64,000 nucleotides of DNA, from positions 1 to 64,000 of the forward strand of contig JAIRYV010000064.1 in NCBI GenBank assembly GCA_031267685.1, read 5' to 3'. Source of the DNA: Treponema sp. Lineage in GTDB: Bacteria; Spirochaetota; Spirochaetia; Treponematales; Breznakiellaceae. Made by a program: the position numbers and the translations under genes. This document shows, in pieces, positions 39,656 through 49,699 of this stretch (the stretch's first letter is position 1; each line of letters begins with the position of its first letter). A model generated the notes under the pieces. The model was not told where the DNA came from, did no database searches, and saw nothing but the letters and a program-made list of their open reading frames with translations.

Positions 39656-39892
39656 TTAGCAAACGATGTTCTCTCCAGCACTAAACCCCTTGCTTTTAGC
39701 CCGGATACGACTAAAAGACAGCTCATCCCCGCTCTTCAGCACCTTCGCCTTTCTACAGAGAAGTGCGCAGGTAAGCGTTCTCCCTTCTCTAACAATGGTA
39801 TCAACAGGAATGGCCTTGACAGAGACCGGAACTGACCAACTCTCCCCAATGTCCCTAGATCGTACCTTGTCAAGAATGCTAAACTCCGCCAT
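39656..39892 (-). CDS. Hypothetical protein, 78 aa
   Basis: 78 residues, compact and without signal or membrane segment; contains TIVREGRTLTCALLCRKAKVLKSGDELSFSRI. A GGGATAG lies upstream of the ATG. No family recognised. The regular strand-turn pattern and codon use look coding, but support is limited. Confidence 0.5.
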   Translation of the reverse strand: MAEFSILDKVRSRDIGESWSVPVSVKAIPVDTIVREGRTLTCALLCRKAKVLKSGDELSFSRIRAKSKGFSAGENIVC

Positions 39893-40285: not shown

Positions 40286-41092
40286 CTATTCCTTCGTCCT
40301 GAGGAATTGGCTGATGTTGCCTGCTGATTCACCCTTTTGCATCGCTTCCCTCTTCAAGGCTTCTTCCCTCTTCAGTGCCGCTTCCCTCTTCAGCGCCGCT
40401 TCCCTTTTCAGCGCCGCCTCCCTCTTCAGCGCTTCTTCCTTCTTCAGCGCCGCTTCCCTCTTTGGCGCAGAAACCCCAAGCTTGATGGTATAGCCCTCAT
40501 AAACACTGATAAAAGACGCCCGGTCAAGCAGCTTGAGAAGGTCATACAGCTGCTTAACACGCTTTTTTACCGAACTAAGACTGATCCTCTGTTCCGCGGC
40601 AATAGATTCATACTTATCGCCCTCAAGTATGGACTGAAGCAGCTCAATATCACGCTGCTTGAACAGAGGCTTATATAATAGAAGAATTCTCTCCTGACCA
40701 TCGCTCGTTACCTTATGAAGATGAGTGTCCATGGCCGCTGCCTGTCTCTGAACATCCTCGCTCTCGTGCTTATTGATCGTTACCTTACGAGTGTGAGCGT
40801 CCTTGCCCTGTCGCTCCTGCCCATCACTCGCTATCATAAGCTCAGGGTGTTGATAATCAGGATATTTTTTCTTGAATCTCTGTATCTGCCTATAGACACC
40901 CCGATACCATTCATCAAGCATATTCTCAGCCTCACCAGAGGAACCGCCACGACCAGAATCAGAACCAGAATCAGCGCCACCGCCCGTGCCACTACCGCTA
41001 ATCAATGGACACATACAACAACACGCAGCATTGACAGCCATGTCTACCTCGTGCATTGCAGGCGCCACGTACTCGCTAAACATAATGAACAT
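40286..41092 (-). CDS. Peptide-precursor homologue fused to LuxR-type DNA-binding domain
   Basis: 268 residues. Residues 1-~85 are homologous to the CxCxC peptide at 44919: MFSEYVAPAMHEVDMAVNA, then Cys at 24, 25, 26 and 28, a Gly/Ser spacer, and LDEWYRGVYRQIQRFKKKYPDYQHPEL. After a charged linker, residues ~135-205 form a LuxR/GerE helix-turn-helix (FKQRDIELLQSILEGDKYESIAAE-, ISLSSVKKRVKQLYDLL) nearly the same as in the membrane regulator at 41246. The C-terminal tail has six or so ALKREE/ALKREA repeats (18-bp period) and ends GNISQF. The ribosome site and flanking bases also match the peptide gene (GGAGAATG-AA-GATG). Confidence 0.85.
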   Translation of the reverse strand: MFIMFSEYVAPAMHEVDMAVNAACCCMCPLISGSGTGGGADSGSDSGRGGSSGEAENMLDEWYRGVYRQIQRFKKKYPDYQHPELMIASDGQERQGKDAHTRKVTINKHESEDVQRQAAAMDTHLHKVTSDGQERILLLYKPLFKQRDIELLQSILEGDKYESIAAEQRISLSSVKKRVKQLYDLLKLLDRASFISVYEGYTIKLGVSAPKREAALKKEEALKREAALKREAALKREAALKREEALKREAMQKGESAGNISQFLRTKE

Positions 41093-41245
41093 CTTTCCAT
41101 TCTCCTCTCACTGCGGAATGAAAGATCATTATACACCTATATGTCATGGATCGATACCTGTCCTGTGATATTTTTACCATATACATTGACCGCCCTACCA
41201 GTATAAAAGCAGGTCCCTCTGAGCAAAAAGAGGACGCCGAGTCTA

Positions 41246-42091
41246 CTATGACTTGCCGCGGCTTTGTGGCACAGGGAATTGGCTGATATTGCCAGCCTCT
41301 TCCTCCTTTGGAGCAGGAATCCCCAGCTCAATAGCATAGCCCTCATAGGCATTGATAAAAGACACCCGGTCCGGCAAGTTGAGGTGGTTATACAGCACCC
41401 TGACACGCTTCTTTACAGAACTAAGGCTGATCTTCTGTTCTGAGGCAATGCCTTCATACTTATTCCCCGCAAGTACCAATTGAAGTATCTTAACATCGCG
41501 CTGGGTGAACATAGACCGAGGTAATAGAAGCATGCTCTTCTGCCTCTCGCTCCCTGCCATGTCTTCATTGACATCCTCACCAGATACCTGCGCTTGGATT
41601 TCCCGTCCGTACAAAAGACCACCGAGCAGCGCTATGAGGAATATAGCAACCATGTCAAGGAGTGTCTCGTAGAGATGTTCGAACCCATAGTGTATCTGGG
41701 AGAGTACCGCGCCAGCGAGTACCAGTATCGCAAGACATAGCTTGACCCTTCCATGAGTGTGAAAGAATTCTCCCTTGAGCGCAAAGAGAAGACCCAGACC
41801 ATACATCAGGATACCGCCAAAACTGCCCCCCTCAATGAGGTGAATGAGACCCCACAGGCAGCAGAACACTGCATAGATAGAGAACTGGAGGGGAAAGATG
41901 ACCAACACTACACAGACAATGACAGTTACCCCCTGTAAACCTAGCCCCAAATATGGGTGTATCAGCCCTCCCGCGGTTTTTTCATAAGCAGAGATCGTAT
42001 AACGATCAACCACGAGAACGAGCATCCAAGCAAGCGCGGCAACAATGGCAATAATGCGCCAGTAGAAAAGCTGCTGGTTATGTTTCACCAT
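41246..42091 (-). CDS. Membrane-bound LuxR-family transcriptional regulator
   Basis: 281 residues. About five predicted membrane helices in the first 165 residues (IIAIVAALAWMLVLVV; GVTVIVCVVLVIFPLQ; LVLAGAVLSQI; VAIFLIALLGGLLYG), then a cytoplasmic LuxR-type HTH (FTQRDVKILQLVLAGNKYEGIA, ISLSSVKKRVRVLYNHL). It could sense a membrane or extracellular signal and control the divergent peptide cluster. Its 5' end overlaps the 42085 gene by 7 bp. The HTH and tail (GNISQF) match the fusion protein encoded next, so one gene arose from the other with exchange of the N-terminal domain. Confidence 0.85.
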   Translation of the reverse strand: MVKHNQQLFYWRIIAIVAALAWMLVLVVDRYTISAYEKTAGGLIHPYLGLGLQGVTVIVCVVLVIFPLQFSIYAVFCCLWGLIHLIEGGSFGGILMYGLGLLFALKGEFFHTHGRVKLCLAILVLAGAVLSQIHYGFEHLYETLLDMVAIFLIALLGGLLYGREIQAQVSGEDVNEDMAGSERQKSMLLLPRSMFTQRDVKILQLVLAGNKYEGIASEQKISLSSVKKRVRVLYNHLNLPDRVSFINAYEGYAIELGIPAPKEEEAGNISQFPVPQSRGKS

Positions 42092-42651
42092 GATACATTA
42101 TAAATAGCTTCCGGGAGGATGCTGTCCAGAGCTTCACAGGGCTTGGCATGGACCCGCTTGGTAAGCTCTTGCCGCAGAGCTTCCGCGTCCCAGGCCCCCG
42201 CATTCAGCGGGTTGTACTGATGCCTCCGACAGTCTTCTTCCTGACTCCGCTCATACCCAGCGAGCATCACCAACGCAAGCTGGCTCATGCCGTGGCCGAT
42301 GATCTCCTGGTTACCACCCTTGAACGAGGACAGGAGCCGGAGACGGGCAAAGGGACTGGTGTTGTCCTCCAGGGTATGATCCCCAATGCTCCTGCCGCCT
42401 CTAAGCTCAGTCATATAGATCGCTAGGTGCGCCAGAGCAGTGCGTTCCGCTTCCTCACAGCGAGCCGCAAAGGGAATCGCTGCAATCAGCTTTGCTGTTC
42501 TGTTCCGGGCAAAGTCCGCCCGTTCCTGAGCGCTGAAACAAAAGGTTTCCGCCACGCAATCACAGAGCCTTTCCCAAGGAAAGGACTCCCGCGTTTCCAG
42601 AACCTGAATCCGAGTGGCGCTTGCTAGAGCGCCAAAGCCGCTGTCTTTCAT
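42085..42651 (-). CDS. Hypothetical protein in regulator operon
   Basis: 188 residues from the ATG preceded by GAGGAGA (the frame is open 12 codons further). Cytoplasmic, mostly helical, with LDCVAETFCFS-like and HGMSQLALVMLAGYERSQEEDC segments. First gene of the minus-strand regulator group, overlapping the membrane LuxR gene, so probably part of the same control circuit. No family recognised. Confidence 0.7.
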   Translation of the reverse strand: MKDSGFGALASATRIQVLETRESFPWERLCDCVAETFCFSAQERADFARNRTAKLIAAIPFAARCEEAERTALAHLAIYMTELRGGRSIGDHTLEDNTSPFARLRLLSSFKGGNQEIIGHGMSQLALVMLAGYERSQEEDCRRHQYNPLNAGAWDAEALRQELTKRVHAKPCEALDSILPEAIYNVSW

Positions 42652-42800
42652 AAAAATCTCCTCAATTGAGAACGATTGTAAGTACATGGTACCATATACT
42701 GGGAATGAATGTCAACCGCTCTTGCTAACATTATTCGTTTTCTAGTTTATGCCAAGGTAAAACACGGGTCTAGGCATGAATCATGCCTCCATATACCCCT

Positions 42801-42917
42801 TTACACCTGCATTACACCTTTGTTACACTCGCTTACACTTTGATTACACCCCTACTTACACCACGCTTACATCCTATTTGCACTCAAAATGACCCCGAAT
42901 GTACTCAATTACACCTC
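42801..42917. repeat. Degenerate 10-12-bp TTACAC repeats
   Basis: Eight or nine copies of TTACAC, spaced 10-13 bp apart (about one helical turn), lie between the divergent regulator operon and the maturase gene, partly overlapping its longest open frame. This could be a multi-site operator for one of the LuxR-type regulators or simple slippage sequence. Confidence 0.6.
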
Positions 42918-42988
42918 AAAAACCATTGACTGCTGCAAAGAAGAGTGTATTATGGAGATACATACATGTTCACTCTATGGAGGTTGTT

Positions 42989-44320
42989 GTGCGTTCCTTA
43001 CTCGACTCGTTGTATTTCCCAAACAAGTACCTGCGCTTTTCCCATGGGAAGTATCAAGTGCTGCTCAACACTGAGAACTGTAGAAGCAGAAAACTTTTGG
43101 AACACGAGTACGCTTACTTCAATAAACTCCTCCTATTAAAACAGGATTCAACAAGAGCCGCCGCAGTTCAATGGATAGAAGAGAACCCAGACGCATTTGC
43201 CTTTGTCAAACAGATGATCGTCTCCGGCATGGTGTCCATGAAGCCTTTTGTGGAAAACAAACGCGATACTGTACAGGGAAAGCCAGTCTCGACTTACTGG
43301 GGCGTGTCGTCACGGTGTAACTTTAGGTGCAAGTACTGCTATGCTGACTGCGGCGCTCCGGTCCCAGAGGAAACCCAGCGATACTTAACAGTGCAAGAAC
43401 ACCAGCGCGTCATTGACAAGATCAAAGACCACGGGTTTTCCGAACTCGTCTTTACCGGCGGGGAACCACTCTTGAACAGAGACGTTTTTGCTATGGCAAC
43501 ATATGCAAAGCAAAAAGGACTGTTTGTCGGACTGCTAAGCAATGGGTCCTTGATAAAGAATCACGACGTTGAACAGTTTAAGACCTTCGACTATGTAAAG
43601 CTCAGTTTGGACAGTATTAAGGAAGAAGAAAATGATTATCTCAGAGGACGCGGCAGTTACCATCTGATCATTGACGCGATTGAGCGGCTGCGTTCAAACA
43701 ATATAGACGTGCATATTGGAACTGTTTTGACGAAAATAAACAAAGACACCATAGCAAACCTGATAAGTGAACTCTACAAGACCTATACCATTAAACGCCA
43801 CACCATAGCGAACTTCACTCCCATAGGAGCGGGAGCAGTCCACGCCGCTGAGTTGGAATGTGACTTAGAAGAGACAGGGAGAAATGATGCCCTGATACGG
43901 GAAACCAAAATGAAGCTGTCAAAAAAGGATTTCCATTCGATTTTGAATGACAAGGCCATTTCTGAAGACAGGCATGTCTGCTGCGGTATGGGCAATTCAG
44001 AGATATTCATTAACGAGTGCGGGGATGTGTATCCATGTAGAATGACCTACTCCAACGAGTATTACTTGGGCAATATTCTAACCAATGATATGGCAGCAAT
44101 ATAAAAAAACGTTGAGAAAATCACGAAAGATTTAACGGTTGATTCCCTTGAATCCTGCACATCATGTGATTACAAGTATGTATGCGGCGGCGGCTGCAGG
44201 ATGTACCACTGTGCCTATACAGGCTCGATCTATAAAAGCCACCCGCCGTTTTGCGCTGTCTTAAAACAGCAGTTAGAAAGTTTGCTGCTCCTGAAAAATG
44301 GAGTGTATGACAATGAATGA
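42989..44320 (+). pseudogene. Radical SAM/SPASM peptide maturase, interrupted by in-frame stop
   Basis: Start chosen at GTG 42989 with GGAGG five bases upstream; in-frame ATGs at 42977 and 42899 are alternatives. The radical SAM motif CNFRCKYC lies near residue 110 and FTGGEPLL follows. The C-terminal SPASM region starts HVCCGMGNSEIFINECGDVYPC, but a TAA at 44102-44104 stops translation after MAAI. The same frame continues KNVEKITKDL... and encodes the rest of SPASM (SCTSCDYKYVCGGGCRMYHC) up to a TGA at 44320. One nonsense change (or sequence error) thus separates the auxiliary-cluster cysteines. Members modify ribosomal peptides; it resembles Cys-rich peptide maturases (CcpM-like), judged by pattern only. 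Confidence 0.85.
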
Positions 44321-44529: not shown

Positions 44530-44868
44530 ATGAAGAAACTTATTTTTGGCGGGTTTATTGGCCTGTTGCTTTGCTGCACGGCAGTGGCGTTTGCCGATCC
44601 GGTTGTTACAGGAACCTTTAGCGGGAATCTTGGTGAAGTTGTCCTTGACAAAAGCGCAGACGGGGTATTAGGGCATTTTGACATTGAGGTAGAAGTGCCA
44701 AAACTACGCAACAGACAGAGTCTTGGAGCGCAAGAGCCGGCAATTAGAGAAGCGATAAAAAAAGAAATCGCAAAACTTGGCGGCACTCGCGCTATAGATA
44801 TAATGATACAGGGCTATGAAACAGCTGACACTGTTTTTGCCCGCGTAATCGGGACAGTAGTAAAGTAA
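44530..44868 (+). CDS. Small exported protein, paralogue 1
   Basis: 112 residues with TAGGAGAG upstream. Signal peptide MKKLIFGGFIGLLLCC, cut near AFA-DP. The mature domain has EVVLDKSADGVLGHFDIEV, then IREAIKKEIAKLGGTRAIDI and ends FARVIGTVVK. The same domain occurs in the genes at 45361 and 45727. Located inside the peptide cluster, between maturase and CxCxC peptide. Could be an accessory, immunity or secreted substrate protein; the family is not recognised. Confidence 0.75.
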   Translation: MKKLIFGGFIGLLLCCTAVAFADPVVTGTFSGNLGEVVLDKSADGVLGHFDIEVEVPKLRNRQSLGAQEPAIREAIKKEIAKLGGTRAIDIMIQGYETADTVFARVIGTVVK

Positions 44869-44918
44869 TGGCAAACGCGTGATAATTTTTCATCCCACGT
44901 CGAAAGGAGAATGAAACG

Positions 44919-45158
44919 ATGCTTAGTATGTTTAGCAAGTACGCAGCGCCTGCAATGCGCGAAGTGGACATTGCCGCCAATGCTGATTGCCATTGTGGTT
45001 GCACAGTAACTACCGGCGGCGGCGGTGGTGATGGCCCCAGAAATTCCAAAGAGGCTAAGGAGGCGCTTGATAAGTGGTACCGGGACCTTCGTAAACAGCT
45101 TGAAAAACTCAAGAAAGACTATCCTGACTACGATCACCCTGAGCTTGAGGATAATTAA
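44919..45158 (+). CDS. Putative RiPP precursor-like peptide (CxCxC)
   Basis: 79 residues, GAAAGGAG nine bases before the ATG. No signal peptide. MFSKYAAPAMREVDIAANA leads to Cys24-His-Cys26-Gly-Cys28, then TVTT and a Gly-rich stretch (GGGGGDG), then a charged amphipathic helix (ALDKWYRDLRKQLEKLKKDY) ending YDHPELEDN. The position in a cluster with a radical SAM/SPASM maturase, PqqD-like protein, peptidase and exporter makes it the best precursor candidate. Which part is core and which is recognition sequence is unclear. Its homologue is the N-terminus of the regulator at 40286. Confidence 0.72.
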   Translation: MLSMFSKYAAPAMREVDIAANADCHCGCTVTTGGGGGDGPRNSKEAKEALDKWYRDLRKQLEKLKKDYPDYDHPELEDN

Positions 45159-45163
45159 AAGGC

Positions 45164-45355
45164 GTGTCCGCTTATAAGATCAACGCCGATAAGTTCGACG
45201 CTTATAAGCGGATGTTCCTTAAAGACACGGCGCTCATTGTCATAACATGCGCCGCGTCATTGGTCTGTTTGTCTTTTAGCAATAGCCATAGATTGAAGCG
45301 TGCGCCGGGATGGTTCTTTGCGGACCAGCCTGGCATATATCTAATAGAGAGGTAG
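45164..45355 (+). CDS. Possible small membrane protein with KRAP tail
   Basis: 63 residues from GTG 45164, six bases after the peptide gene. It reads SAYKINADKFDAYKRMF, then a hydrophobic segment (TALIVITCAASLVCLSF), then KRAPGWFFADQPGIYLIER. The first part coincides with the hairpin at 45166 and is echoed before the PqqD gene (AYKLTADKLDAYMR); the last part is echoed at 44423. The ribosome site is poor (AAAAGG). It may be a gene or a set of shared repeats. Confidence 0.35.
   Translation: MSAYKINADKFDAYKRMFLKDTALIVITCAASLVCLSFSNSHRLKRAPGWFFADQPGIYLIER
45166..45213 (+). repeat. Hairpin repeat, copy 1
   Basis: TCCGCTTATAAG pairs with CTTATAAGCGGA (12 bp) around a 22-nt loop ATCAACGCCGATAAGTTCG-ACG. 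Copy 2 at 46050 has the same loop with few changes and a compensating base pair in the stem. Confidence 0.7.
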
Positions 45356-45360
45356 CATTT

Positions 45361-45687
45361 ATGAAGAAACTTATTTTTACTTTGTTGCTTTGTTGTGCAA
45401 CAGTGGTGTTTGCTACTTCATGTGCCTTATCACGTTTTTCCAGTTCTGGGGCCGAAGTTGTCCTTGACGAAAGCGAGGACGGGGTACTAGGGCATTTTGA
45501 CATTGAGGTAAAAGTGCCAAAACCACACAGAGACTTTAGCCTTAGTGGTAATGATCCGGCAATTAGAGACGCGATAAAACAAGAAATCGCAAAACATGGC
45601 GGCACTCGCGCTATACATATAAACATAGATGGTCGGGAAACATTTGGCTCTATTATTGTCCGCATAACTGGGACAGTCGTAAAATAA
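45361..45687 (+). CDS. Small exported protein, paralogue 2
   Basis: 108 residues from ATG 45361 (AGAGAGG upstream). Signal MKKLIFTLLLCCATVVFATSC, where TSC could be a lipobox (Cys ~21). The mature part repeats the domain EVVLDESEDGVLGHFDIEV ... IRDAIKQEIAKHGGTRAIHI ... ITGTVVK. The upstream 70 bp also match the region before paralogue 1, so the duplication unit included its leader. Confidence 0.75.
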   Translation: MKKLIFTLLLCCATVVFATSCALSRFSSSGAEVVLDESEDGVLGHFDIEVKVPKPHRDFSLSGNDPAIRDAIKQEIAKHGGTRAIHINIDGRETFGSIIVRITGTVVK

Positions 45688-45726: not shown

Positions 45727-46023
45727 ATGAAAAACCTTGTTTTTGGCGGGTTTGGTGGCGTTGCATCAACCTTTTCTGGCATTCTTGATGAAGTTGTCCT
45801 TGACGAAAACGTGGACGGAGGATTAGGGCATTTTGACCTTGAGGTAGTAATGCCAAAACGACACGGCGGACGGAGTTTTGGCGCACAGGATCCGGCAATT
45901 AGAGACGCGATAAAAAAAGAAATCGCAAAACGTGGCGGCACTCGTGCTATAGATATAACGATACGGGGCTATGAAACAGCTGACGCTATTTTTGCCCGCG
46001 TAATCGGGACAGTCGTAAAATAA
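45727..46023 (+). CDS. Small protein, paralogue 3 with shortened N-terminus
   Basis: 98 residues, AGGAGAG upstream of ATG. It starts MKNLVFGGFGGVASTFSGIL, so most of the hydrophobic signal core found in paralogues 1 and 2 is missing, while the domain EVVLDENVDGGLGHFDLEV ... IRDAIKKEIAKRGGTRAIDI ... VIGTVVK is complete. Probably not exported, or a decaying copy. Confidence 0.7.
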   Translation: MKNLVFGGFGGVASTFSGILDEVVLDENVDGGLGHFDLEVVMPKRHGGRSFGAQDPAIRDAIKKEIAKRGGTRAIDITIRGYETADAIFARVIGTVVK

Positions 46024-46120: not shown

Positions 46121-46399
46121 ATGTTTAGATTAAATGACACGGTATTTTTTGAGACTGACAACGAAACAGGCAAAAAATATCTCATTGACTCGGAAAACGG
46201 CAATTTGTTTCACCTGAATGAAACCGCGGCCCTGCTCCTGGGCTTTTTGCAAGACAACAAAGACATCGACAAATACGCGGCCTTTGTTGTCTCCCATGCA
46301 GGCAGCGCAATTCCCCTCCAGACCATCCGCAAGGACGCTGAAGCGTATATCACCCTGCTGCTCGACAAGGGGTTTCTGCTCCGGGAAGAAACGCCTTGA
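46121..46399 (+). CDS. PqqD-like RiPP recognition protein
   Basis: 92 residues from ATG 46121, seven bases after AAGGAG (the frame is open to 46037). The KYLIDSENGNLFHLNETAALLLGFL segment followed by helices is typical of the PqqD / RiPP recognition element winged-helix fold, which binds precursor leaders and presents them to radical SAM enzymes. The stop overlaps the start of the S26 peptidase gene by 4 nt. Confidence 0.8.
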   Translation: MFRLNDTVFFETDNETGKKYLIDSENGNLFHLNETAALLLGFLQDNKDIDKYAAFVVSHAGSAIPLQTIRKDAEAYITLLLDKGFLLREETP

Positions 46400-47079
46400 A
46401 TAACGTAAACCCCAGGTTCATCAAAAAAATGCTCTCACACGGGGCATTTAATTTTACTATAAACGGCAACTCTATGGAGCCGCGCTATTTTCACGGCGAC
46501 ACCGTTAAAATAGCCGCCTGCCCAGACTATCATGTCGATGATATTGTGCTCTATGAATCAGGAACACGGCTTGTTGTTCATAGAATGAGGGCTATACACG
46601 GCGAACTGGTTATAACCAAAGGAGACAATAACCAATTCATGGATCAGGCCATACAAAAAACCGCAATTCTGGGGAAAATTATTGACCACAACCCTATTGC
46701 GCCGCAAGTCAGAGCCGCAATGGTTTTTAATTTCTGGGAAGAGGCGCTGTATCATGAATGTAAGCCCTACTGCGAAAAACTGGGGCTTGAAATACGCTGC
46801 ATGAAAAATCATTTTTTTGAAGACGGCAAAAACATCGGCCTCTCAGCCGGTTCCCCCGTGAGTATTCTGGACAGGGAAAAGCCCCCGACCAATGACCAGC
46901 TCTATATCCATATCGGCGTGCCAATAGCCGACCACCTTTGTGAAGGCTTTGTTCATAAAAACCGCTTTGACGGCGTGTACCGTTCCGGCACATACACATC
47001 TCCGTACCTCTTAACCCATAGCGAAAACTTTTTGGTTCTCTATGGAGAACTTATGCAGTATTGGAATGCTGCTCAATAG
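46396..47079 (+). CDS. S26-type signal peptidase-like protein
   Basis: 227 residues. Residues ~20-90 show S26 peptidase hallmarks: NGNSMEPRYFHGDTV with the nucleophile Ser in the SM motif, then VDDIVLYES, LVVHRM and ITKGDNNQFMD. The HR in place of the bacterial Lys dyad resembles the Ser/His type (SipW/ER-like). There is no N-terminal membrane anchor, unlike ordinary leader peptidases. The C-terminal ~120 residues (FNFWEEALYHECKPYCEKLGL ...) are unrelated and Cys/His-containing. In RiPP clusters such proteins are thought to cleave or handle the peptide; that role is inferred here. Confidence 0.8.
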   Translation: MNNVNPRFIKKMLSHGAFNFTINGNSMEPRYFHGDTVKIAACPDYHVDDIVLYESGTRLVVHRMRAIHGELVITKGDNNQFMDQAIQKTAILGKIIDHNPIAPQVRAAMVFNFWEEALYHECKPYCEKLGLEIRCMKNHFFEDGKNIGLSAGSPVSILDREKPPTNDQLYIHIGVPIADHLCEGFVHKNRFDGVYRSGTYTSPYLLTHSENFLVLYGELMQYWNAAQ

Positions 47080-47091
47080 GAAAAACAAAAA

Positions 47092-48882
47092 ATGAAACGA
47101 ATACTCCAGAATAATCTTTTTATGCTTCGTTATATGTGGAAATACGCCAAGGGCAATGTACTAGCCCGATTTTTTACCATCCTTCTAGCCCCAGTACAGC
47201 CCTTTGTATTTATTATCTGCATGAAGTTTTCCATTGACGGCATTGCCGATGGCAAGCCGCTCTCCTATATACTCAGCATCATAGCAATCGCCTTTATCGC
47301 CTCCACGGTTGCAGCGCTTATTAACGCCTTTATCACAGGCAGCAGCTCCAAAGCGCGGGTCAGGGTGAAAAAAGGCGTCCAAGACGAGCTGCTCACCAAA
47401 ATCCTCAGCATTGACATTGCCTGTTTCGATGACGCGGCTTTTTACGACAAATATGTGCGGGCGCTCGACGAAGCTGAAAACCGCGCAGACGCTGTCCTTG
47501 ATTCAATCGTGGGAATACTCTCTTCCCTCGTTTCCCTTGTTACAGTCATATCTATTGCTATAACCCTCAACCCCCTTGTTATTGCCATTGCTGCAGCCTC
47601 AGTTGCGCTCCAAACGCTCCTCAATATCGTGCGCGATCCCATTGATTATAAACGGCAGATGGATTTTACCCGACCAAGACGAGAGTGCAATTACGCAAAA
47701 GGAATCTTTTATAACCAGCAATACGCGCAAGAACTCCGCATGGGGAAACTTGGCCCCCTTATGAAGCGCAAATTCAACAGTGCTATGGATACATACCTGG
47801 GGATTGTCAAAAAATATTGCCCAGTGTTTATCGTGTTTGACAGCGCATTGCCTGTGGTTGGTTTTGGAACCATGACAGGGGTCATGGCATTTTCCGCTGT
47901 GCAGATTGCAAAGGGCGCACTCACCATCGGCGATTTTGCCGCGCTCCTGAACGCTTCCAATGAAATAGTCGGCAATATGTTTTCCCTGTTCGGGAAAATC
48001 CCTGCGCTGCGGCAAAACAGTATGTATATCGAAAACCTGCGCTCGGTTATCGAGTACAAGTCAACAATCGTTTCTACCCGGAATCTTCCTGCTTCAATGG
48101 CAGCAAATAATACCCTGACGCTCAAAAATATAACCTTTGCCTACCCCGGCAAACAAGAGCCAACACTCAAAAACCTCAGCATGGAAATCAGGCATGGCTC
48201 AAAAACCGCGATTGTCGGCTATAATGGCGCGGGTAAATCAACCATCGTAAAACTGCTCCTGCGTCTTTATGATCCAGTTGCCGGAACCATCGCTCTGAAT
48301 TCTCTTGATTATCGAGCTATTGACGTGGCTTCCCTGCGGAATAAATTCGGTGTGATTTTTCAGAACTACAAAAGTTACGCCATGACTGTGGGGGAAAATG
48401 TGCTTCTGGAAGAGTTCCGCTCCAAAGAACAGGAAGAGCGCATTATTGAAGCCCTGGATTATGCAGGTGTTTATGACAAAATCGCAGGACTTGAGAAGGG
48501 CGTTCACACTGCGCTTTCCCGTGAATTTGATAGTGACGGAATTCTGCTTTCAGGCGGTGAGGAACAGAAAATCGCCATTGCCCGTGCGTTTGTAGACAAC
48601 CGCGACATTTTGATTCTGGACGAGCCTTCAAGCGCCCTCGATCCAATGGCCGAGTATGAAATCAATCAAAAAATACAGAACATTGCCAATGGTAAAACCG
48701 TTATTTTTATTTCTCACCGCTTGTCAACAGTCCGCATGGCTGATATGATATATATGATAGATAAAGGCGCAGTCATTGAAGCAGGCAGTCATCAAGAACT
48801 GATGGCGCTGAAAGGTAAGTACTGTGAAATGTTCACTGCGCAGGCAAAAAATTATTATATAGACGATCAGGACGCCCACTAA
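47092..48882 (+). CDS. ABC transporter, fused membrane and ATPase domains
   Basis: 596 residues. Six predicted membrane helices in residues 1-~320, then a nucleotide-binding domain with Walker A GYNGAGKST (near 385), Q-loop FQNYKSYA, signature LSGGEEQKIAIARAF, Walker B ILILDEPSSALD and the H-loop ISHR. No N-terminal C39 peptidase is present, so leader removal would be done by another enzyme such as the S26 protein. Exporter-type half transporter that would act as a homodimer. It follows the peptidase gene by 12 bp and is probably the peptide exporter. Confidence 0.92.
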   Translation: MKRILQNNLFMLRYMWKYAKGNVLARFFTILLAPVQPFVFIICMKFSIDGIADGKPLSYILSIIAIAFIASTVAALINAFITGSSSKARVRVKKGVQDELLTKILSIDIACFDDAAFYDKYVRALDEAENRADAVLDSIVGILSSLVSLVTVISIAITLNPLVIAIAAASVALQTLLNIVRDPIDYKRQMDFTRPRRECNYAKGIFYNQQYAQELRMGKLGPLMKRKFNSAMDTYLGIVKKYCPVFIVFDSALPVVGFGTMTGVMAFSAVQIAKGALTIGDFAALLNASNEIVGNMFSLFGKIPALRQNSMYIENLRSVIEYKSTIVSTRNLPASMAANNTLTLKNITFAYPGKQEPTLKNLSMEIRHGSKTAIVGYNGAGKSTIVKLLLRLYDPVAGTIALNSLDYRAIDVASLRNKFGVIFQNYKSYAMTVGENVLLEEFRSKEQEERIIEALDYAGVYDKIAGLEKGVHTALSREFDSDGILLSGGEEQKIAIARAFVDNRDILILDEPSSALDPMAEYEINQKIQNIANGKTVIFISHRLSTVRMADMIYMIDKGAVIEAGSHQELMALKGKYCEMFTAQAKNYYIDDQDAH

Positions 48883-49448: not shown

Positions 49449-49699
49449 TGGTGATTCCCACGAAGTCTGTGGGAATCCCCGCGAACTTCGTGGGAATTCC
49501 CGCAAAGTCTGTGGGAGTTCCCGCGAACTTCGTGGGAATCCCCGCAAAGTTCGTGGGAGTTCCCACGAAGTCTGTGGGAATCCCCGCAAAGTCTGTGGGA
49601 GTTCCCGCGAACTTCGTGGGAATCCCCGCAAAGTCTGTGGGAGTTCCCGCGAAGTCTGTGGGAATCCCCGCAAAGTTCGTGGGAATCACCACAAACACG
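49449..49699. repeat. Array B: 21-bp palindromic repeats
   Basis: Twelve head-to-tail 21-bp units, alternating GGAATCCCCGCAAAGTCTGTG and GGAGTTCCCGCGAACTTCGTG types. The full dyad reads TTCCCRCGAA-S-TTCGYGGGAA, nearly perfect in several units. Multiples of 21 keep both strands open in several frames (7-residue periodicity such as VGIPAKS), which I regard as incidental. The array ends 60 bp before the FN3-like gene. Confidence 0.93.

Follow-up and report, generated by a model that had tools for sequence, protein, structure and literature searches.

A LuxR-type regulator that begins with a copy of a RiPP precursor peptide in Treponema genomes: a possible sensor of its own maturation machinery

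RiPP clusters are usually considered to be controlled through the secreted product or through a separate pheromone. The locus described here, located in a stretch of Treponema DNA of 64,000 nucleotides (the window), raises the question of why a transcription regulator should begin with a copy of the precursor peptide of a neighbouring RiPP cluster. The gene and its parts are the following:

40286..41092 (-): precursor–HTH fusion regulator, 268 aa
41093..41129 (-): 5' region and ribosome-binding site copied from the precursor gene (DNA alignment)
41027..41092 (-): leader-like segment, residues 1-22 (MFIMFSEYVAPAMHEVDMAVNA), with a YxxPxM motif (invariant residues and codon selection)
40979..41026 (-): core-like segment, residues 23-38, with CxCxC (Cys24/26/28) and a Gly-rich stretch (invariant Cys; weak StsA match)
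40838..40978 (-): remaining precursor homology, residues 39-85 (LDEWYR...YPDYQHPEL; peptide alignment)
40478..40690 (-): LuxR/NarL-type HTH, residues 135-205 (AlphaFold and Foldseek)
40343..40462 (-): 18-bp tandem repeat encoding a KREAAL tail, without counterpart in the relatives

A preliminary description had read this ORF as a mosaic, and the coordinates and both homologies were borne out. Specifically, residues 1-85 are 44% identical to the 79-aa peptide encoded at 44919 (E 4e-22), Cys24/26/28 being found in both proteins, and residues 113-215 are 52% identical to the HTH segment of the membrane regulator encoded at 41246 (E 2e-32). The further statement that the whole remainder matches the HTH holds for residues 113-215 and fails elsewhere: HTH homology starts at about residue 113, residues 86-112 form a linker whose DNA contains an internal duplication, and residues 211-250 are a tail built of 18-bp tandem repeats. 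Many such arrays, with units of 18-23 bp, occur within and between genes of the genus (40343-40462, 49463-49695, L049 8936-9349, L052 8657-8984). The present genome, searched throughout, has a single peptide, a single fusion and a single membrane regulator of this type.

The HTH was modelled by AlphaFold with a pLDDT of 93-98 (residues 141-200), and Foldseek matched it to the DNA-binding domains of VraR, LiaR, NarL and GerE (TMt 0.72-0.86), the VraR/LiaR/NarL matches having an rmsd of about 1.1-2.1 and prob 1.00, with a best E of only 0.004. The GerE profile stayed under its cut-off on the window fusion (E 0.054); among the HTH proteins of the relatives it matched that of G051 with E 8.9e-5 and that of G053 with 24.5 bits against a cut-off of 23.5. 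On its predicted structure, the fusion HTH has a GerE-type fold.

The genus sample consisted of the five available genomes, namely the present one and G051, G052, G053 and G054, which all appear to be MAGs; three relatives are so named, as Treponema sp. MAGs, and going by their isolate codes we regard these as coming from termite guts. Looked for in these genomes, the order of leader, CxCxC and HTH was present in four of the five, the fusions of G051, G052 and G054 being 186, 169 and 181 aa long, and a chance fusion confined to one strain, a possibility raised at the outset, is thereby ruled out. Beyond the genus, no convincing homologue was found among 394 genomes of the order, where the weak matches looked on inspection like chance Cys or leader-like resemblances. 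In addition, no precursor homologue was found in viral contigs, and a scan of GTDB returned nothing but the three sister MAGs.

Residues M4, F5, Y8, P11, A12, M13, E15, V16, D17, A22, C24, C26 and C28 are kept in all four fusions, together with several Gly of the core, and Y8, P11, M13, E15-V16-D17 and Cys24/26/28 are invariant across the four fusions and the 44919 peptide. When two independent pairs were pooled, the codons of residues 1-22 differed at 12 of 25 synonymous and 13 of 106 nonsynonymous sites (p 2e-4); the leader codons evolve under purifying selection in this small sample. The core positions between the Cys drift, with dN/dS mostly about 0.5-1 on few sites, and the core is not clearly constrained beyond its Cys and Gly. 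Linker and precursor tail drift among the fusions as well, the HTH evolving with a dN/dS of about 0.2-0.3.

These data bear on three alternative explanations. A passive N-terminus, in which an active HTH would have lost its sensor by recombination and the precursor 5' end would provide expression signals and a soluble N-terminus unlinked to the machinery, we regard as unlikely. It agrees with the copying of the 5' region, with the disorder that AlphaFold predicts for the fusion N-terminus, and with the occurrence of such recombination at least twice from different donors; it does not readily explain why leader and Cys are invariant whereas linker and precursor tail drift, why residues 1-22 are under purifying selection, or why the G054 fusion maintains its reading frame across an internal duplication. 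A direct metal, Fe-S or thiol-redox sensor, in which the CxCxC would control the HTH without the maturase, appears improbable: the organism is a gut anaerobe, and the regulator, predicted to be cytosolic, has three invariant Cys close together, which would suit it, but the leader outside the Cys is equally conserved and is common to the precursor adjoining a radical SAM enzyme, and profile searches gave no match to a known metal-binding family. Finally, we give hardly any credit to a decaying, functionless chance recombinant, since the ORF is intact in four independent MAGs, the HTH is constrained and the leader conserved, despite the erosion visible nearby in the window maturase (a TAA), in the decayed precursor of G052 and in a remnant cluster of G053.

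The preliminary description had also noted that the match to the peptide gene reaches the ribosome site, and this proved correct: DNA similarity crosses the start codon over 154 nt at 71%, with arms at 40976-41129 and 44882-45035. The 70 nt upstream of the window fusion resemble those of the precursor gene (z = 7.0 against shuffles), as does the 5' region of every fusion (z 6.3-11.0); for the 5' region of the membrane regulator the same comparison gave z = 0.5, i.e. no resemblance. The genes involved in the origin of the fusion are:

41246..42091 (-): membrane LuxR-type regulator with a related HTH, 281 aa (GerE E 1.6e-5)
42085..42687 (-): 200-aa partner of the membrane regulator, matching no known family (recurring pair)
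L049 11640-11882: stand-alone TM/coiled-coil ORF of the G052 RiPP operon, 80 aa, homologue of the N-terminus of the G053 regulator

The degenerate 3' end of a 200-aa gene immediately precedes the fusion in G051, G052 (locus G052:C52) and G054. These remnants match the window gene with blastn E values of 6e-21, 4e-10 and 2e-13, respectively, and the joint falls at a constant point, just before a QKQV-like segment behind the last TM helix. The fusion therefore took the slot of the membrane regulator by an in-place swap, in agreement with the earlier proposal that a peptide had replaced the sensor domain. In the present genome, the fusion sits behind an intact 200-aa gene and an intact membrane regulator. 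In G053 the same HTH is joined to a TM/coiled-coil N-terminus, 63% identical to the stand-alone ORF of the G052 operon, and this gene likewise adjoins a broken 200-aa gene. The precursor graft and the G053 graft thus indicate that operon proteins were joined onto this HTH at least twice; the HTH tree does not separate a single from a double origin of the precursor fusion itself (AU p 0.21).

The 200-aa protein gave zero matches in Pfam and NCBIfam profile searches. Its pairing with a membrane LuxR recurs at three other loci of the genus (G052:C5, G052:C15 and G053:C42), where the pairs adjoin peptide or radical SAM genes. Wherever a membrane LuxR was seen in the genus, this gene stands ahead of it; where the membrane sensor has been exchanged, the gene has decayed. 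This suggests that its product works jointly with that sensor. A pair of this kind, together with an ABC transporter, adjoins the gene at L076 218-652 (-) for a secreted peptide whose processing region is GG-like (LTNAEAQAVEGEG). On the other side of the window fusion, a short ORF at 39656-39892 (-) resembles a ParB-like gene with its middle deleted; this gene is intact in G051 (L051 1884-2756), there too behind the fusion.

The neighbouring cluster encodes the following components:

42977..44317 (+): StsB-like radical SAM/SPASM maturase, with an in-frame TAA at 44102-44104
44919..45158 (+): stand-alone precursor peptide, 79 aa (ORF and StsA match)
46121..46399 (+): discrete PqqD-like RRE protein (Pfam PqqD E 1.2e-7)
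46396..47079 (+): archaeal-type signal-peptidase-I-like (SpI) protein (S24/S26), candidate leader peptidase (TIGR02228 E 1.3e-12)
47092..48882 (+): ABC exporter (profile matches)

Among all families searched, the G052 maturase scored best with StsB, over nearly its full length (E 9.7e-53; StsA/StsB sactipeptide families, NCBIfam NF045558 and NF045574), although its 179.6 bits do not reach the cut-off of 625; it also carries Radical_SAM (E 4.1e-26) and SPASM (E 6.5e-5) domains. All five leader sequences match StsA weakly, at best with E 0.0066 and 15.7 bits against a cut-off of 42. Judged from these profile matches, the cluster has the sactipeptide arrangement of a radical SAM/SPASM enzyme adjoining a Cys-containing precursor. 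"Sts" presumably refers to streptosactin. At E 1e-35, an StsB-like maturase was found in none of 195 other genomes of the family. AlphaFold gave no usable fold for the maturase (pLDDT 37 on three sequences).

In the window, the maturase frame is broken at codon 376, just ahead of the C-terminal SPASM cysteines, where the relatives have Gln. The region 3' of the TAA is still conserved (dN/dS 0.13), so that the stop either arose recently or reflects a sequence error. G052 has an intact, constrained maturase (dN/dS 0.12 against G054) but a stand-alone precursor decayed by stops; apart from the fusion, no intact substrate-like ORF was found in that genome (82% complete), which makes an engagement of the fusion by the machinery plausible. 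In G051 (contig edge, 68% complete) and in G053, neither precursor nor maturase was found.

The lasso-type PqqD profile NF033530 matched the RRE protein under its cut-off (E 7.8e-7), and the closest solved chain by sequence was TfuB1, a weak match (E 0.046). For the peptidase, the G052 orthologue passes the TIGR02228 cut-off of 51.85 with a score of 53.9, and the window copy falls just under it with 47.8. Three paralogous small proteins (LGHFDIEV...GGTRAIDI; 44530-44868, 45310-45687 and 45727-46023, all +) flank the precursor; some have a signal-peptide-like start, G052 has a single copy, and they are possibly immunity proteins or lipoproteins.

The presence of a SpI-like peptidase and an ABC exporter, together with the fact that the fusion holds leader, core and precursor tail all at once, would fit a bifunctional precursor, whose N-terminus would be modified, cleaved and exported as a second product while cleavage released the HTH. 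The core of the fusion, however, has no C-terminal end of its own, and three genomes have a reduced precursor tail; we consider this explanation very improbable.

Upstream of the maturase lie two putative regulatory elements:

42801..42861 (+): phased TTACAC direct-repeat array, putative operator, six copies with a phase of about 10-11 bp
42926..42953 (+): promoter-like TTGACT-16-TATTAT, downstream of the array and before the maturase

A seventh TTACAC copy is found at 42909. TTACAC is not enriched in the window (22 observed against 22.5 expected), and it was dropped as a motif of the whole window; the phased array alone counts. Across the five genomes (about 11 Mb), a strict phased TTACAC triple occurs at this type of locus only, namely in the present window, between the fusion and the maturase of G054, and next to the HTH gene of G053, and the reversed control gave zero. 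Outside the genus, phased triples appeared in 5 of 195 genomes, in unrelated contexts and close to the reversed-pattern control. The G052 array is degenerate, and the strict pattern did not pick it up; weaker TTACAC forms precede the G052 maturase and the peptide gene of G052:C5, and the layout of array followed by promoter is also seen in G052, G054 and G052:C5. A related but distinct HTH subgroup is accompanied at its loci by phased TGAGACC, not by TTACAC. Further radical SAM genes adjoining membrane-LuxR pairs (L077 2-694 and L078 3185-3499) have phased TGAGACC upstream, and TTACAC repeats lie upstream of the L076 218-652 peptide gene.

The sole regulator beside the G054 array is the fusion. 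From position and co-occurrence, the fusion HTH would act at the TTACAC array; in the present genome this role could fall to the membrane LuxR instead.

As to known systems, the maturase resembles StsB over nearly its full length and all leaders match StsA, but both scores are far under the NCBI cut-offs, the 79-aa precursor has a long C-terminal tail, and a discrete RRE and a SpI are added. The HTH is of the LuxR/NarL one-component type (VraR, LiaR, NarL, GerE), which combines this fold with a variable N-terminal sensor; here the sensor slot is filled by a RiPP precursor copy. Plant NLR receptors with integrated decoys sense an activity through a fused copy of its target; the likeness is an analogy without homology, and the present case would be a bacterial transcription regulator through which a biosynthetic machine senses itself. 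Linear polyphosphorylated peptides (LPP) have a YxxP leader to which a discrete RRE binds, and the cut made in it by a SipW-like SpI depends on the RRE (PMC13381572). The YxxP-type leader, the discrete RRE and an archaeal-type signal peptidase I, here a candidate leader peptidase, are common to both systems, whereas the present one has a radical SAM maturase and a precursor carried by a regulator. The full LPP motif YxxPxVLxHQxIxFETxxS is absent and YxxPx(M) alone is common: YVAPAM of the fusion and YAAPAM and YLSPAM of the relatives agree with the short [Y/W]xxPx-hydrophobic motif. A literature search found no paper describing a transcription regulator with a RiPP precursor fused to it, most subscription journals being outside its scope.

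In the interpretation that we favour, a precursor copy (leader and CxCxC core, 5' region and RBS) would have displaced the membrane sensor of a LuxR-type regulator whose HTH would work at the phased array that lies shortly before the maturase promoter. The grafted YxxPxM leader, of the kind bound by discrete RREs, would most likely make the fusion a pseudo-substrate of the RRE/signal-peptidase/StsB-like machinery. At the N-terminus of the fusion, RRE binding, cleavage or the formation of thioethers would compete with the real precursor, and the outcome would inform the operon of the state of the machinery, as an integrated-substrate feedback sensor. That the fusion is a conserved regulator of one-component type that governs its own RiPP operon, with the maturation machinery as input, is our tentative choice, held at somewhat short of an even chance. 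The wider proposal, of an integrated-substrate transcription factor with a RiPP precursor as sensor, on which the maturation enzymes act to set the expression of their own operon, and which belongs to a modular cassette grafting cluster-encoded small proteins onto one HTH, is possible and advanced with more reserve.

The pseudo-substrate reading is favoured by the architecture shared with G051, G052 and G054, the invariant leader and Cys, the selected leader and the precursor-like 5' region; by the in-place swap, the second swap in G053 and the confinement of the strict TTACAC triple to this locus in the genus; by the pairing of HTH subgroups with phased motifs (TTACAC or TGAGACC); and by the LPP precedent for the trio of YxxP leader, discrete RRE and archaeal-type SpI (PMC13381572). 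Core drift, G051 and G053 without a precursor or maturase found, the AU p of 0.21 and the degenerate G052 array weaken it, and the stop in the window maturase and the lost G052 precursor indicate that the system is eroding in places, which also counts against it. The invariant YxxPxM leader and CxCxC make an action of the maturase or of the S26 protein on the fusion plausible; the machinery may modify, cleave or titrate it, as had been suggested earlier. We infer DNA binding by the fusion, its recognition by RRE, SpI or maturase, and the sign of the feedback.

If true, a regulator that itself acts as a pseudo-substrate would read how precursor and maturase are balanced within the cell, and an RRE, a maturase or a leader peptidase may control a transcription factor post-translationally. 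The arrangement would also be a natural model on which reporters of radical SAM peptide modification could be built.
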